Assembly (NCBI RefSeq): GCF_019801145.1
Contig: NZ_JAHVJQ010000001.1
Span: 682,001 to 746,000 of the forward strand
DNA length: 64,000 nucleotides
Direction: 5' to 3'
DNA from: Leisingera aquaemixtae
Lineage (GTDB): Bacteria > Pseudomonadota > Alphaproteobacteria > Rhodobacterales > Rhodobacteraceae
Part shown: in pieces, positions 1,769 through 27,575 of the stretch
Layout of the letters: each line of letters begins with the position of its first letter
Position numbering within the stretch: the stretch's first letter is position 1
The notes under the pieces: generated by a model
Seen by the model: the letters and a program-made list of their open reading frames with translations, nothing else
Database searches by the model: none
What the model was told of the DNA's origin: nothing
Made by a program: the position numbers and the translations under genes

Positions 1769-3163
1769 TTACATATGGATCACCCGGCCGTAGGCGTCGA
1801 GCACCGATTCATGCATCATCTCGCTCAGCGTCGGATGCGGGAAGACGGTGTTCATCAGGTCTTCCTCGGTGGTCTCCAGCTGGCGGCCCACCACATAGCC
1901 CTGGATCATCTCGGTCACCTCGGCGCCAACCATGTGGGCGCCCAGCAGCTCGCCGGTCTTGGCGTCGAAGACGGTTTTCACCATGCCCTCGGCCTCACCC
2001 AGCGCAATCGCCTTGCCGTTGCCGATGAAGGGGAAGCGGCCGACCTTGATCTCGTAGCCCAGTTCCTTGGCCTTGGCCTCGGTATAGCCGACGGAGGCGA
2101 CCTGCGGCTGGCAGTAGGTGCAGCCGGCAATGCTCTCCGGCTTCACCGGGTGCGCGTGCTTGCCCGCGATCAGCTCGGCCACCATGACGCCCTCGTGGGA
2201 CGCCTTGTGAGCCAGCCAGGGCGCGCCGGCGATGTCGCCGATGGCATAGAGGCCATCGACGCCGGTGCGGCAGAATTCGTCAGTGATCACATGGGTGCGG
2301 TCGACCTTGACGCCCAGCTCTTCCAGCCCCAGGCTCTCGACGTTGCCGACGATCCCCACGGCGGAAATCACGGTGTCGAACTCCTGTTTCTCCACCTTGC
2401 CGCCCACTTCGATATGGGCCGTCACCTTGCCCTTGCCGCGGTCCAACTGCTTGACCATGGCTTTCTCCATGATCTTCATGCCCTGTTTGACAAAGGCCTT
2501 CTTGGCAAAGGCGGAGATTTCCGCGTCCTCGACCGGCAGCACCCGGTCCATCACCTCAACCACCGTGGTGTCAGCACCCAGCGTGTTGTAGAAGCTGGCA
2601 AATTCGATGCCGATGGCGCCGGAGCCGATCACCAGCAGCTTTTTCGGCATCCGCACCGGCTGAAGCGCATGCTTGTAGGTCCAGACCAGATCGCCGTCTG
2701 CTTCCAGCCCCGGCAGCTCGCGGGCGCGGGCGCCGGTGGCCAGAACGATATTCTTGGCGGTCAGCTCCTCGGTGCCCTTTTCGGTCTTGACCGAAACCTT
2801 GCCCTTGGCCGGGATCGAGGCTTCGCCCATCACCACGGTGATCTTGTTCTTCTTCATCAGGTGGCCGATGCCGGAGGACAGCTGTTTCGCCACCCCGCGC
2901 GAGCGTTTCACCACCGCGTCCAGGTCATAGCCGATGTTTTCAGCCTTCAGGCCGAAATCCTTGGCGCGCTCCATCAGGTGGAACACTTCCGACGACCGCA
3001 GCAGCGCCTTGGTCGGAATGCAGCCCCAATTCAGGCAGATGCCGCCCAGATGCTCGCGCTCGACCACACAGGTCTTCAGACCCAGCTGCGCGGCACGGAT
3101 GGCCGCAACATAGCCCCCCGGGCCTGCGCCGATTACGATCACGTCATAAGATTGTGCGGCCAT
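1769..3163 (-). CDS. lpdA: Dihydrolipoyl dehydrogenase (E3)
   Basis: A 464-residue flavoprotein that reoxidises dihydrolipoamide in 2-oxoacid dehydrogenase complexes, passing electrons to NAD. It shows the N-terminal FAD motif VIGAGPGGYVAA, the redox-active pair in GGICLNWGCIPTKAL, an NAD-binding GSGAIGIEFASF segment, a second FAD motif near GLYAIGDIAG, and the C-terminal HPTLSEMMHE with the catalytic His-Glu. I chose the ATG at 3163 (MAAQSYDV) because GAGGGAG lies just upstream; an earlier start at 3193 would add ten unlikely residues. The palindrome at 3198-3215 in its leader is shared with pdhA, so this E3 probably serves the PDH complex encoded 20 kb away. Confidence 0.95.
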   Translation of the reverse strand: MAAQSYDVIVIGAGPGGYVAAIRAAQLGLKTCVVEREHLGGICLNWGCIPTKALLRSSEVFHLMERAKDFGLKAENIGYDLDAVVKRSRGVAKQLSSGIGHLMKKNKITVVMGEASIPAKGKVSVKTEKGTEELTAKNIVLATGARARELPGLEADGDLVWTYKHALQPVRMPKKLLVIGSGAIGIEFASFYNTLGADTTVVEVMDRVLPVEDAEISAFAKKAFVKQGMKIMEKAMVKQLDRGKGKVTAHIEVGGKVEKQEFDTVISAVGIVGNVESLGLEELGVKVDRTHVITDEFCRTGVDGLYAIGDIAGAPWLAHKASHEGVMVAELIAGKHAHPVKPESIAGCTYCQPQVASVGYTEAKAKELGYEIKVGRFPFIGNGKAIALGEAEGMVKTVFDAKTGELLGAHMVGAEVTEMIQGYVVGRQLETTEEDLMNTVFPHPTLSEMMHESVLDAYGRVIHM

Positions 3164-3197: not shown

Positions 3198-3215
3198 TAG
3201 TTTACCGTTAAACTA
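3198..3215. promoter_or_regulatory. Palindromic operator-like site upstream of lpdA
   Basis: TAGTTTA-CCGT-TAAACTA is a perfect 7+4+7 palindrome centred about 43 bases upstream of the lpdA start. The same design with one mismatch occurs 36 bases upstream of pdhA at 23163-23180. Shared placement ahead of E3 and E1 genes suggests a common transcription factor. The factor is not identifiable here. Confidence 0.6.
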
Positions 3216-22972: not shown

Positions 22973-23162
22973 CGGGGGCCGGGTTTTGCCGGACTTCCGC
23001 ACCTCCCCGCTCCCTTCTGAAATCCTCCGGTTCCGCCCTGCCAGCGGCTGTGCCTGCTGCATCCAAGCGTGGCATTTTTGCGCGCTGATCGGCGGATCTT
23101 TACCCTGCGTCCGGGCCGCGTCAGAATAGCACTATTCAGCCGCGCCAAAACCCGCTATGAAT

Positions 23163-23180
23163 TTGTTTAACACTAAACTA
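23163..23180. promoter_or_regulatory. Palindromic operator-like site upstream of pdhA
   Basis: TTGTTTA-ACAC-TAAACTA matches the lpdA site with one arm mismatch (6 of 7 pairs). It is centred 36 bases before the pdhA start. The core GTTTA-N4-TAAAC is identical in both. Probably bound by a regulator of pyruvate dehydrogenase genes; identity unknown. Confidence 0.6.
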
Positions 23181-23207: not shown

Positions 23208-24203
23208 ATGGCCGCTAGAAAAAGCGCAAAGAAACCAAACGTTTCTGCCGAAGAACTGACGAAACACTACCGCGAGATGCTGCTGATCCGCCGATTCGAG
23301 GAAAAGTCGGGCCAGCTCTACGGCATGGGCCTGATCGGCGGCTTCTGCCACCTCTACATCGGCCAGGAAGCGGTTGTCGTGGGCCTGGAGGCCGCCGCCG
23401 AGGAAGGCGACAAGCGGGTCACCTCCTACCGCGACCACGGCCACATGCTGGCCTGCGGCATGGACCCCGACGGCGTGATGGCCGAACTGACCGGGCGCGA
23501 GGGCGGCTACTCCAAGGGCAAGGGCGGCTCCATGCACATGTTCTCGAAAGAGAAGCATTTCTATGGCGGCCACGGCATCGTCGGCGCCCAAGTGCCGCTT
23601 GGCGCCGGCCTCGCCTTTGCCGACAAGTACAAGGGCAACGGCCGCGTGACCTTCGCCTATTTCGGCGACGGCGCCGCCAACCAGGGCCAGGTCTACGAGA
23701 CCTTCAACATGGCCGCCCTGTGGAAGCTGCCGGTGGTCTTCGTGATCGAGAACAACCAGTACGCCATGGGCACCGCCCAGCAGCGCTCCACCTCCAGCGC
23801 CGAGATCTGGGAACGCGGCAAGGCCTTCGGCATCCCGGGCGAAGCGGTCGACGGCATGAATGTCCTAAGCGTCAAGGAGGCCGGCGAGCGCGCCGTGGCC
23901 CACTGCCGCAGCGGCGACGGCCCCTACATCCTCGAAGTGAAGACCTACCGCTACCGCGGCCACTCGATGTCGGACCCGGCTAAATACCGCACCCGCGAAG
24001 AGGTCCAGAAAATGCGCGAGGAGCGCGACCCGATCGAGCAGGTCCGCGAGATGCTGCTGACCGGCAAGCACGCCACCGAAGAGGATCTCAAGGCGATCGA
24101 CAAGGAGATCAAGGAGATCGTCAGCAAATCCGCAGAATTCGCCAAGGAGAGCCCGGAACCGGCTCTGGAAGAGCTGTGGACCGACATCTACGACGAGGCG
24201 TGA
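23208..24203 (+). CDS. pdhA: Pyruvate dehydrogenase E1, alpha subunit
   Basis: 331 residues. With PdhB it decarboxylates pyruvate with thiamine diphosphate and acetylates lipoyl groups. The ThDP motif GDGAANQGQVYETFNMAALW ... ENNQYAMGT is present, as are the family stretch GGFCHLYIGQEAVVVG and the phosphorylation-loop-like RYRGHSMSDPAKYR. I chose the ATG at 23208 (MAARKSAKK) with GGGGGAG upstream; an in-frame ATG at 23157 would put the start inside the palindrome. First gene of the PDH operon. Confidence 0.96.
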   Translation: MAARKSAKKPNVSAEELTKHYREMLLIRRFEEKSGQLYGMGLIGGFCHLYIGQEAVVVGLEAAAEEGDKRVTSYRDHGHMLACGMDPDGVMAELTGREGGYSKGKGGSMHMFSKEKHFYGGHGIVGAQVPLGAGLAFADKYKGNGRVTFAYFGDGAANQGQVYETFNMAALWKLPVVFVIENNQYAMGTAQQRSTSSAEIWERGKAFGIPGEAVDGMNVLSVKEAGERAVAHCRSGDGPYILEVKTYRYRGHSMSDPAKYRTREEVQKMREERDPIEQVREMLLTGKHATEEDLKAIDKEIKEIVSKSAEFAKESPEPALEELWTDIYDEA

Positions 24204-24599: not shown

Positions 24600-25973
24600 A
24601 TGGCAACTGAAATTCTGATGCCCGCCCTGTCGCCGACCATGGAGGAAGGCACCCTGGCCAAATGGCTGGTCAAGGAAGGCGATACCGTGAATTCCGGCGA
24701 CATCCTCGCCGAGATTGAAACCGACAAGGCGACGATGGAGTTCGAAGCCGTCGATGAAGGCAAGGTCGGCAAGATCCTGATCGGTGAAGGCACCGAAGGC
24801 GTGAAGGTCAACACCCCGATCGCGGTGCTGCTGGAAGACGGCGAAAGCTACGATGCCTCCGCTGCCCCTGCCCCGGCTGCTGAAGCCCCGGCTCCCGCAG
24901 CTGAGGCTCCCGCAGCCCCCGCCGCCGCTGCTGCCGCGCCTGCGCCGGTTGAAAGCCGCGTGCTGGAGCCGGACTACCCGGAAGGCACCGAGATGGTGCA
25001 GACCACCGTGCGCGAAGCGCTGCGCGACGCCATGGCCGAGGAAATGCGCCGCGACGAGGACGTGTTCCTGATGGGCGAGGAAGTCGCCGAGTACCAGGGC
25101 GCCTACAAGGTGTCCCAAGGGCTTCTGGACGAATTCGGCTCCAAGCGGGTGATCGACACCCCGATCACCGAGCACGGCTTTGCCGGCATCGCCACCGGCG
25201 CGGCCTTCGGCGGCCTGCGCCCGATTGTCGAGTTCATGACCTTCAACTTCGCCATGCAGGCGATTGACCACATCATCAACTCGGCGGCCAAGACGCTCTA
25301 TATGTCCGGCGGCCAGATGGGCGCCCCGATGGTGTTCCGCGGCCCCAACGGCGCCGCCGCCCGCGTCGCCGCCCAGCACAGCCAGGACTACGCCGCCTGG
25401 TACATGCAGATCCCGGGCCTCAAGGTGGCGATGCCCTACTCCGCCGCCGACGCCAAAGGCCTGATGAAGACCGCGATCCGCGACAACAACCCGGTGATCT
25501 TCCTGGAGAATGAAATCCTCTACGGACGCGCCTTCGACGTGCCGAAACTGGATGATTTCACCATCCCCTTCGGCAAGGCCCGGATCTGGCGCGAAGGCTC
25601 TGACGCCACCATCGTCTCCTTCGGCATCGGCATGCAATACGCGCTGGAAGCCGCCGACAAGCTGGCCCAGGACGGCATCGCGGCTGAGGTCATCGACCTG
25701 CGCACCCTGCGCCCGATGGACCTGCCCACGGTGATTGAATCGGTCAAAAAGACCAACCGCCTGGTGACGGTCGAAGAAGGCTGGCCGCAGGGCTCCGTCG
25801 GCAGCTACATCGCCTCCGAGGTGATGCAGCAGGCGTTCGATTATCTGGACGCGCCGGTCATCACCTGCACCGGCAAGGACGTTCCGATGCCCTACGCCGC
25901 CAACCTGGAACGCCACGCGCTGATCACCACGGATGAAGTGGTCGAGGCCGTGAAGCAAGTGACCTACCGCTAA
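24600..25973 (+). CDS. pdhB: Pyruvate dehydrogenase E1, beta subunit, with N-terminal lipoyl domain
   Basis: 457 residues. Residues 1-80 are a lipoyl domain ([10 protein letters not shown], Lys is the lipoyl site), then an Ala/Pro linker (about 85-120), then the transketolase-type beta subunit with [42 protein letters not shown] and the C-terminal [15 protein letters not shown]. Plain E1 beta proteins are about 330 residues; the lipoyl extension is a known alphaproteobacterial form. It follows the VOC gene by three bases. Confidence 0.96.
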
Positions 25974-25981
25974 GGACGAAG

Positions 25982-26242
25982 ATGGAAATCAGGGGCCGCG
26001 ATCCCGAAACCGAATGCTACCGCGTCACGCTGACCGTCGACGGGCGCACAGTCACCGCACTGGTTCCCGAACGGCTGGCAGCAGACACACGGCTGATCGG
26101 CTCGCGGCCCTCCCATCAGGAAGCCTACGTCTGGATGGCGGAGAAGAAAGACAAGATCGAAGCCGCGATCACTTTGCTTGCCCGCGGCACCCGGCGCCCC
26201 AGGGCGCCCTATGACCAAATTGTTCTGATTGAGGAGCGCTGA
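25982..26242 (+). CDS. Small conserved-looking protein in the PDH operon, function unknown
   Basis: 86 residues, beginning [21 protein letters not shown] and ending [17 protein letters not shown] do not recognise the family. The composition is soluble and mixed alpha/beta with no signal or membrane segment. AAGGACGA lies just before the ATG. It starts eight bases after pdhB and its stop is immediately followed by pdhC, so it is in the operon; co-translation argues it is a real gene that supports the complex. Confidence 0.7.
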
Positions 26243-26243
26243 C

Positions 26244-27575
26244 ATGCCCACCGAAATCCTGATGCCCGCGCTTTCTCCCACCATGGAGGAAGGCACCCTT
26301 GCCAAATGGCTGGTCAAGGAGGGTGACACCGTCTCCTCCGGCGACCTGATCGCCGAGATCGAAACCGACAAAGCCACCATGGAATTTGAAGCCGTGGACG
26401 AAGGCGTGGTCGGCAAGATCCTGATCGCCGAAGGCTCCGAGGGCGTGAAGGTCAACACCCCCATCGCGGTGCTGCTGGAAGACGGCGAAAGCGCCGACGA
26501 CATCCCGTCCGCCGGCACCTCTGACGGCGGCGGCGCCCCGGCCAAGGCTGACGCCCCTGCCGCCGCAGAAGCCCCCGCAGCCGCCCCCAAGGAAGAGGCC
26601 AAAGCCGCCCCCGCCGCGCCGCAGGGCGCCGACGGCAGCCGCATCTTCGCCTCCCCCCTGGCGCGCCGCATCGCCGCCGACAAGGGCCTGGACCTGAGCC
26701 AGATCACCGGTTCCGGCCCCAAGGGCCGCATCGTCAAGGCCGACGTCATGGACGCCAAGCCGCAGGCCGCCGCCGCAGCTAAGGCAGGCGGCACCGACAC
26801 TGGCCCCGCCGCAGCAGCCCCCGCTGCCGCAGCAGCCCCTGCCGGCCCCTCCGCCGACATGGTTGCCCGCATGTACGAGGGCCGCGAGTTTGAGGAGGTC
26901 AAGCTGGACGGCATGCGCAAGACCATCGCCGCCCGCCTGACCGAGGCCAAGCAGACCATCCCGCATTTCTACCTGCGCCGCGACATCCAGCTCGATGCGC
27001 TCTTGAAATTCCGCGGCGAGCTGAACAAGCAGCTTGAGGGCCGCGGGGTGAAGCTCTCGGTCAACGACTTCATCATCAAGGCGGTTGCGCTGGCGCTGCA
27101 AGCGGTGCCGGACGCCAACGCGGTCTGGGCCGGCGACCGGGTGCTCAAGATGAAAGCCTCCGACGTGGCGGTGGCCGTCGCCATCGAAGGCGGGCTGTTC
27201 ACTCCGGTGCTGCAGGACGCAGACAGCAAATCGCTCTCGGCGCTGTCCTCGCAAATGAAGGACCTGGCGTCGCGCGCCCGCGACCGCAAGCTGGCCCCGC
27301 ATGAATACCAGGGCGGCAGCTTCGCGATCTCCAACCTCGGCATGTTCGGCATCGACAATTTCGACGCCATCGTGAACCCGCCGCACGCGGGCATCCTGGC
27401 GGTCGGCTCCGGCGTCAAGAAACCTGTTGTGGGTTCGGACGGCGAGCTGAAGGTCGCCACCGTGATGAGCGTTACCATGTCGGTCGACCACCGCGTCATC
27501 GACGGCGCCCTCGGCGCGGACCTGTTGAAGGCGATCGTCGACAACCTGGAAAACCCGATGGTGATGCTGGCCTGA
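26244..27575 (+). CDS. pdhC: Dihydrolipoyllysine acetyltransferase (E2 of PDH)
   Basis: 443 residues. One lipoyl domain (1-80, [15 protein letters not shown]), an Ala/Pro linker, a peripheral-subunit binding domain at about 130-165 ([33 protein letters not shown]), a second linker, and the catalytic acyltransferase core ending with [16 protein letters not shown], which holds the catalytic His and Asp. It forms the core that accepts acetyl from E1 and gives acetyl-CoA. I chose ATG 26244 (GAGGAG upstream); an earlier frame start at 26229 overlaps the previous gene. Confidence 0.96.

Follow-up and report, generated by a model that had tools for sequence, protein, structure and literature searches.

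A palindromic operator shared by pyruvate dehydrogenase and malic enzyme genes in Rhodobacteraceae, and its candidate MarR-family repressor

Introduction

In a 64,000-nucleotide stretch of the Leisingera aquaemixtae genome – hereafter the window – the genes for pyruvate dehydrogenase (PDH) are split, with E3 in one place and E1 and E2 in another, and both groups are preceded by a palindrome of the form TAGTTTA-N4-TAAACTA. The same palindrome stands before the malic enzyme gene maeB elsewhere in the genome, and it recurs before PDH genes in other genera of the family. From sequence comparison we consider it quite likely that a MarR-family repressor uses this palindrome as its operator; our candidate is the MarR protein encoded after comF, grxC and nit.

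The operator in the window and in the genome

The features of the window are the following:

1769..3163, minus strand: lpdA, dihydrolipoyl dehydrogenase (E3), identified by Pfam and by NCBIfam TIGR01350 (565.8 bits, cut-off 408.8)
3198..3215: operator before lpdA, TAGTTTA-CCGT-TAAACTA (TAGTTTACCGTTAAACTA); the same or nearly the same 18-mer precedes lpdA in relatives within the genus
23151..23162, plus strand: probable -10 region directly upstream of the pdhA operator, from base frequencies in 47 pdhA leaders
23163..23180: operator before pdhA, TTGTTTA-ACAC-TAAACTA (TTGTTTAACACTAAACTA), supported by a footprint across genera
23208..24203, plus strand: pdhA, PDH E1 alpha, identified by Pfam and by NCBIfam TIGR03182 (516.4 bits, cut-off 393.85)
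24600..25973, plus strand: pdhB, E1 beta with a lipoyl domain, identified by Pfam
26229..27575, plus strand: pdhC, E2 acyltransferase, identified by Pfam; the coordinates are the bounds of the open reading frame

The two palindromes, already reported in the first-pass annotation, differ in a single arm base. From the edge of the operator to the likely start codon – ATG at 3163 on the minus strand for lpdA and ATG at 23208 on the plus strand for pdhA – the distances are 34 and 27 bp, respectively, while the 43 and 36 bases given in the annotation agree with distances from the operator centre. The pair are the sole matches in the window at up to three mismatches and lie far beyond chance, as none of 100 dinucleotide shuffles of the window gave any match at that threshold. 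The operator of PdhR differs from TAGTTTA-N4-TAAACTA, and the annotation's statement that the motif does not resemble the E. coli PdhR site finds support, with the PdhR motif taken from general knowledge.

No regulator gene was found between lpdA and pdhA among the open reading frames submitted to Pfam. This interval also encodes a 504-residue protein with RTX calcium-binding repeats (16103-17617), and a 173-residue protein with a C-terminal ribosome modulation factor domain (30.7 bits, cut-off 27.9) lies at 12371-12892.

Searched across the 4.88 Mb genome, the strict pattern TDGTTTANNNNTAAACHA – whose degenerate D and H positions were fitted to the three sites themselves – matches three times and its reversed control not at all, where a first-order Markov model of the window gives an expectation of 0.0015. 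The third site (G000:C1:925889-925906, TGGTTTAACGCTAAACAA) lies outside the window on the same contig, 22 bp upstream of maeB, whose product is a malic enzyme carrying a phosphotransacetylase-like tail (PF00390, PF03949, PF01515). The remark that there is no third copy is therefore correct inside the window but not genome-wide; likewise, one operator does unite the split E3 and E1-E2 genes, as had been proposed, but a regulon dedicated to PDH is too narrow a description, since maeB, and sometimes aceE, also belong to it. At up to three mismatches the genome yields 13 places against 52 for the reversed control, and such loose matches are meaningless because the control has more; those with two or three mismatches, for example before a glucose/sorbosone dehydrogenase gene, were set aside for this reason.

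Conservation in the genus and the family

Of 21 genomes of the genus, 20 contain three strict sites and one contains two, while the reversed control matches once, in one of the 21. With one locus read in each of the 20 relatives, every site there precedes lpdA, pdhA or maeB.

For the wider family, pdhA was sought by protein match, and hence independently of the motif, in 61 genomes read as Rhodobacteraceae, each of another genus. Among the 30 best loci of the 57 genomes with a match, 28 have a leader site that matches 11 or more of the 14 arm bases; G022 (10/14) and G073 (none) do not. A further 20 leaders gave 13 with the site, six without it (G024, G028, G034, G092, G103 and G063, the last with a distant homologue of pdhA) and one, in G035, with the altered palindrome TTGTTTG-ATGT-CAAACTA; pattern searches added eight more genera with the site at pdhA. 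Once G061, G074, G091 and G098 (no pdhA at E 1e-60) and the distant G063 are left out, 56 genera have a true pdhA, of which 49 have the site, six have none and one has the altered form, with some leaders scored positive partly by eye (G064 at 9/14, G022 and G067 at 10/14). G035 was set aside as a variant, which leaves 55 genera for the tests of regulator co-occurrence described below. The annotation had reckoned with a motif missing from near relatives or scattered at random over many unrelated places; the strict motif is kept in the genus and, at pdhA, in the family, and it is not scattered in this way.

Outside the genus, the strict pattern alone matches in eight of 16 genera of the family and in two of 24 genomes beyond the family, both times away from target genes (L014, L015). 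A looser pattern, applied to 50 genomes, gave 136 sites among the matches listed, against 55 for the reversed control (27 of them in G034, G073 and G103), and with a control this high some unlabelled sites are chance. Combined with tblastn labels, the same pattern places copies, among the matches listed, before lpdA and maeB in many genera and in unrelated places too. As the lpdA, maeB and aceE loci outside the genus were found via the motif, their numbers give no conservation rate.

An AceE-type E1 gene is preceded by the site in G022, G069, G097, G064, G079 and G100. The AceE protein of G022, cut by the sequence end, reaches 768.6 bits over the N-terminal half of TIGR00759, the model for homodimeric PDH E1, the cut-off of 859.9 being set for the whole protein. 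The operator is thus present at PDH genes of two E1 types, and its presence at homodimeric E1 genes in some genera indicates that it tracks function rather than gene family. Of the aceE loci, just one, L162, showed a frame that by eye resembles GntR; it lies some 6 kb away, next to an aminotransferase.

Several single loci deserve separate mention. Paired operators stand about 158 bp apart before aceE in G022, G069 and G097 (L041, L087, L145), a distance that might allow the DNA to loop. In G031 (L121 1511), genes that by eye resemble aroC and thiB flank a near-perfect palindrome, TAGTTTAACGTTAAACCA; PDH uses thiamine diphosphate as its cofactor. The perfect palindrome TAGTTTAATATTAAACTA is found in G089 (L154 1510) at a malic enzyme gene 52% identical to maeB, and in G076 (L104 1501) between the ends of two convergent genes, apparently with no target.

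From the operator to a MarR-family candidate

A scan of a species collection of 84,980 genomes for TAGTTTAAYGYTAAACTA gave at least 118 stretches, 80 of which were examined. Among the matches listed, 63 of the 80 18-mers precede target genes – pdhA in 45 cases, maeB in 13, lpdA in three and aceE in two, with one maeB label (L257) resting on 41% identity – and nearly all these records are titled as Rhodobacteraceae, their genera or alphaproteobacterial bins. Of the 17 listed loci away from targets, seven (L248, L261, L264, L281, L290, L297 and L299) carry a MarR gene, confirmed by Pfam, adjacent to the site or in its vicinity; they come from Bacilli, a cyanobacterium and Proteobacteria. A test for MarR-like frames finds eight of these 17, the eighth (L271) being without a Pfam match, and none within 2 kb at the 63 target loci. 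In L299 (3434) the site is followed by a gene for an Acg-family FMN oxidoreductase (NF047509, 214.3 bits, cut-off 199) and then by the MarR gene. In both L233 (893) and L299 (3434) the 18-mer stands before genes for related Tat-type proteins, and L233 has a TetR-like frame on the other side of the site.

With the L299 MarR protein as query, the candidate was traced in 56 family genomes, where a single clade answers, whose members share the stretch RPDWDDAR and a helix that resembles FHVTRGAMTNTL. In L. aquaemixtae its gene lies outside the window (G000:C2:382263-382676, plus strand), after comF and nit as identified by Pfam; several other loci have grxC, comF and nit ahead of it. The winged-helix domain scores above the curated cut-offs (PF12802, 49.4 bits, cut-off 27; PF01047, 34.2 bits, cut-off 24.6), while the candidate reaches no NCBIfam MarR subfamily model (cut-offs of 120-240, best score about 24 bits); its closest sequence in the PDB has an E-value of 6e-9. 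Membership of the clade, set by the sequence signature, agrees with the tree, a quick one with a long-branch warning, in which the 49 members form one branch (SH-aLRT 99).

A clade member occurs in 48 of the 49 site-positive genera but in none of the six site-negative ones (Fisher 2.4e-7, shared ancestry ignored), the sole miss being G077, a draft 74% complete. Without the five genomes below 90% completeness the figures become 45/45 and 0/5; with G064 counted as negative they become 47/48 and 1/7 (p 1.7e-6). The six negative genera may represent few independent events, and five of them also lack CceR, the regulator discussed in the next section. In one of them, G024, comF-grxC-nit is kept and MarR is absent after it; in another, G028, the MarR match falls outside the clade and groups with L299.

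A further hint comes from G035. One position of the helix, which the MarR fold presumably makes the recognition helix, is A in 48 of 49 clade members and T in G035, the genus in which the usual GTTTA-N4-TAAAC at pdhA is replaced by GTTTG-N4-CAAAC, the only such palindrome in a 278 kb contig. A joint change of helix and operator is expected from direct contact, though this is a single case: lpdA and maeB were not found on that contig, and the correspondence comes from one genus. No operator copy was found around the MarR gene in the stretches examined, so no autoregulation links MarR to the motif.

Co-occurrence differs from binding, and three candidate regulators were profiled in all; a different regulator might accordingly bind the operator, with MarR merely co-distributed. 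We think this unlikely, given that MarR was reached via the neighbours of the operator in other bacteria, before its profile was known.

Two other regulators considered

The operator could instead belong to CceR (GapR, RSP_1663), a LacI-family regulator of central carbon metabolism. In the portion available of a network study in R. sphaeroides, RSP_1663 is predicted to bind [AGT]GTT-N6-8-AAC[ACT] and to control malic enzyme and PdhAB (PMC4344238), and our operator, which reads as GTT-N8-AAC, fits that motif. CceR presence also correlates with the site (45/49 against 1/6, Fisher 2e-4, ancestry ignored). Here L075 was provisionally taken as CceR, because in the accessible text of Ravcheev 2014 gapR can have two copies, one of them transcribed divergently from gapB, and L076 fits that copy (PMC4052901).

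Nevertheless, CceR does not occur wherever the site does: at 60% identity or more, an orthologue is absent from four of the 49 site-positive genera – G021, G088 and G101, each 99% complete, and G077, 74% complete – and one is present in the site-negative G092. CceR is thus a poor fit, since genera without it keep the site. The spacer also counts against CceR: in the available part of the network study the predicted RSP_1663 targets form two clusters by spacer difference (PMC4344238). In the L. aquaemixtae genome, N6-spaced matches include two at eno and one each at zwf and pyk, genes recognised from their sequence; these make up four of 14 matches at up to one mismatch, where the reversed control gives 28. 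These N6 sites agree with the GapR regulon of Ravcheev 2014, and pdhA, lpdA and maeB are absent from the accessible text on that regulon (PMC4052901). A CG spacer centre occurs in only 29 of 47 pdhA, 10 of 30 maeB and 5 of 16 lpdA sites; taken at one stage as a sign of a LacI protein, it was dropped, as lpdA and maeB sites have other centres. CceR was rejected as the reader on its distribution across genera, and we regard its ownership of the operator as decidedly improbable.

The other candidate was a regulator of the XRE type that carries a PF09856 (ScfR) domain and whose gene adjoins those of a response regulator and a symporter-like protein. Members of the PF09856 family sense acyl-CoA, and the regulator is present in 46 of 49 site-positive genera. 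It is, however, absent from the site-positive G067, G097 and G077 and present in four of the six site-negative genera, two of these as partial matches (Fisher 0.09), and none of ten loci read has an operator copy around its gene. Rejected on distribution, it seems very improbable indeed as the protein that binds here. The XRE loci have features of their own: a divergent PF09856 regulator, whose middle part by eye resembles a histidine kinase, is widely conserved (L221, L212-L214, L218-L224); several of these loci also encode a response regulator and a symporter-like membrane protein next to it, an arrangement reminiscent of the CrbSR acetate system.

Promoter position and proposed mechanism

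When 47 pdhA leaders are aligned on the operator, T is favoured at -12 and -7 and TT at -37/-36; read as -10 and -35 elements just upstream, these preferences would place the operator over the transcription start. Some 18 nt ahead of the operator, 16 lpdA leaders show a preference for TTG and 30 maeB leaders a less clear one for TT, so that in these leaders the operator would cover the -10 region. The operators thus probably overlap the core promoter, as for a repressor. An inverted repeat near a start codon, possibly transcribed at pdhA, might alternatively work as a hairpin in the leader RNA; this we hold to be exceedingly improbable, given the probable position over the -10 region at lpdA and, less clearly, maeB, and the identical 18-mer adjoining MarR genes in other phyla.

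Returning to the MarR candidate, we infer binding, repression and an effector from what was computed – the site, the content of the regulon, its conservation and the co-occurrence. In this model a MarR dimer would sit on TAGTTTA-N4-TAAACTA at the core promoters of pdhA-pdhB-pdhC, lpdA and maeB, and of aceE where present, and would prevent their transcription until it is released by an effector from the pyruvate or acetyl-CoA node, the nature of the effector being a guess. The path from malate through pyruvate to acetyl-CoA would thereby run as one regulon, which is metabolically sensible, as malic enzyme yields pyruvate and PDH converts pyruvate to acetyl-CoA.

Relation to known systems and significance

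According to the available text of a survey of 196 proteobacterial genomes, PdhR is a GntR protein of pyruvate metabolism found in six taxonomic groups, the lineages named there, such as Enterobacteriales and Vibrionales, being gammaproteobacterial (PMC5343134). Like the proposed repressor, it regulates PDH genes; it responds to pyruvate and in several lineages controls solely aceEF-lpdA, as far as that text goes (PMC5343134). It differs in belonging to the GntR rather than the MarR family and in acting on a single aceEF-lpdA operon, as opposed to split genes plus malic enzyme. CceR/GapR is closer in being a central-carbon regulator of Rhodobacteraceae with GTT..AAC palindromes and, in the portion available, PDH and malic enzyme as predicted targets (PMC4344238), yet its N6 sites lie at glycolytic genes and four genera keep the N8 site without its orthologue. 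With MarR regulators whose operators neighbour their genes the candidate shares the winged-helix domain (Pfam) and, if it binds as proposed, a palindromic operator, the very 18-mer that adjoins MarR genes in other bacteria; it differs in its predicted targets, which are distant genes of central metabolism, and no operator copy was found near the MarR gene itself.

The RSP_1663 prediction probably already included this motif, judging from the text available (PMC4344238). The assignment to MarR, the exact operator and the set of maeB, pdhA, lpdA and aceE appear to be new: among the literature matches listed, from a coverage that leaves most subscription journals outside, a MarR regulator of PDH was not found. 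On balance it seems probable, as far as genome comparison goes, that Rhodobacteraceae possess an undescribed MarR master repressor of pyruvate oxidation that governs malic enzyme and either E1 type (PdhA or AceE) and answers to an effector of the pyruvate/acetyl-CoA node – a third solution beside the GntR protein PdhR and the LacI protein CceR.

PDH is a main entry to the TCA cycle, and Rhodobacteraceae are abundant in the sea. If the MarR assignment is true, the published network prediction would have fused two regulators under one motif, and a previously unassigned motif would be given a named candidate regulator, an operator and a small regulon.
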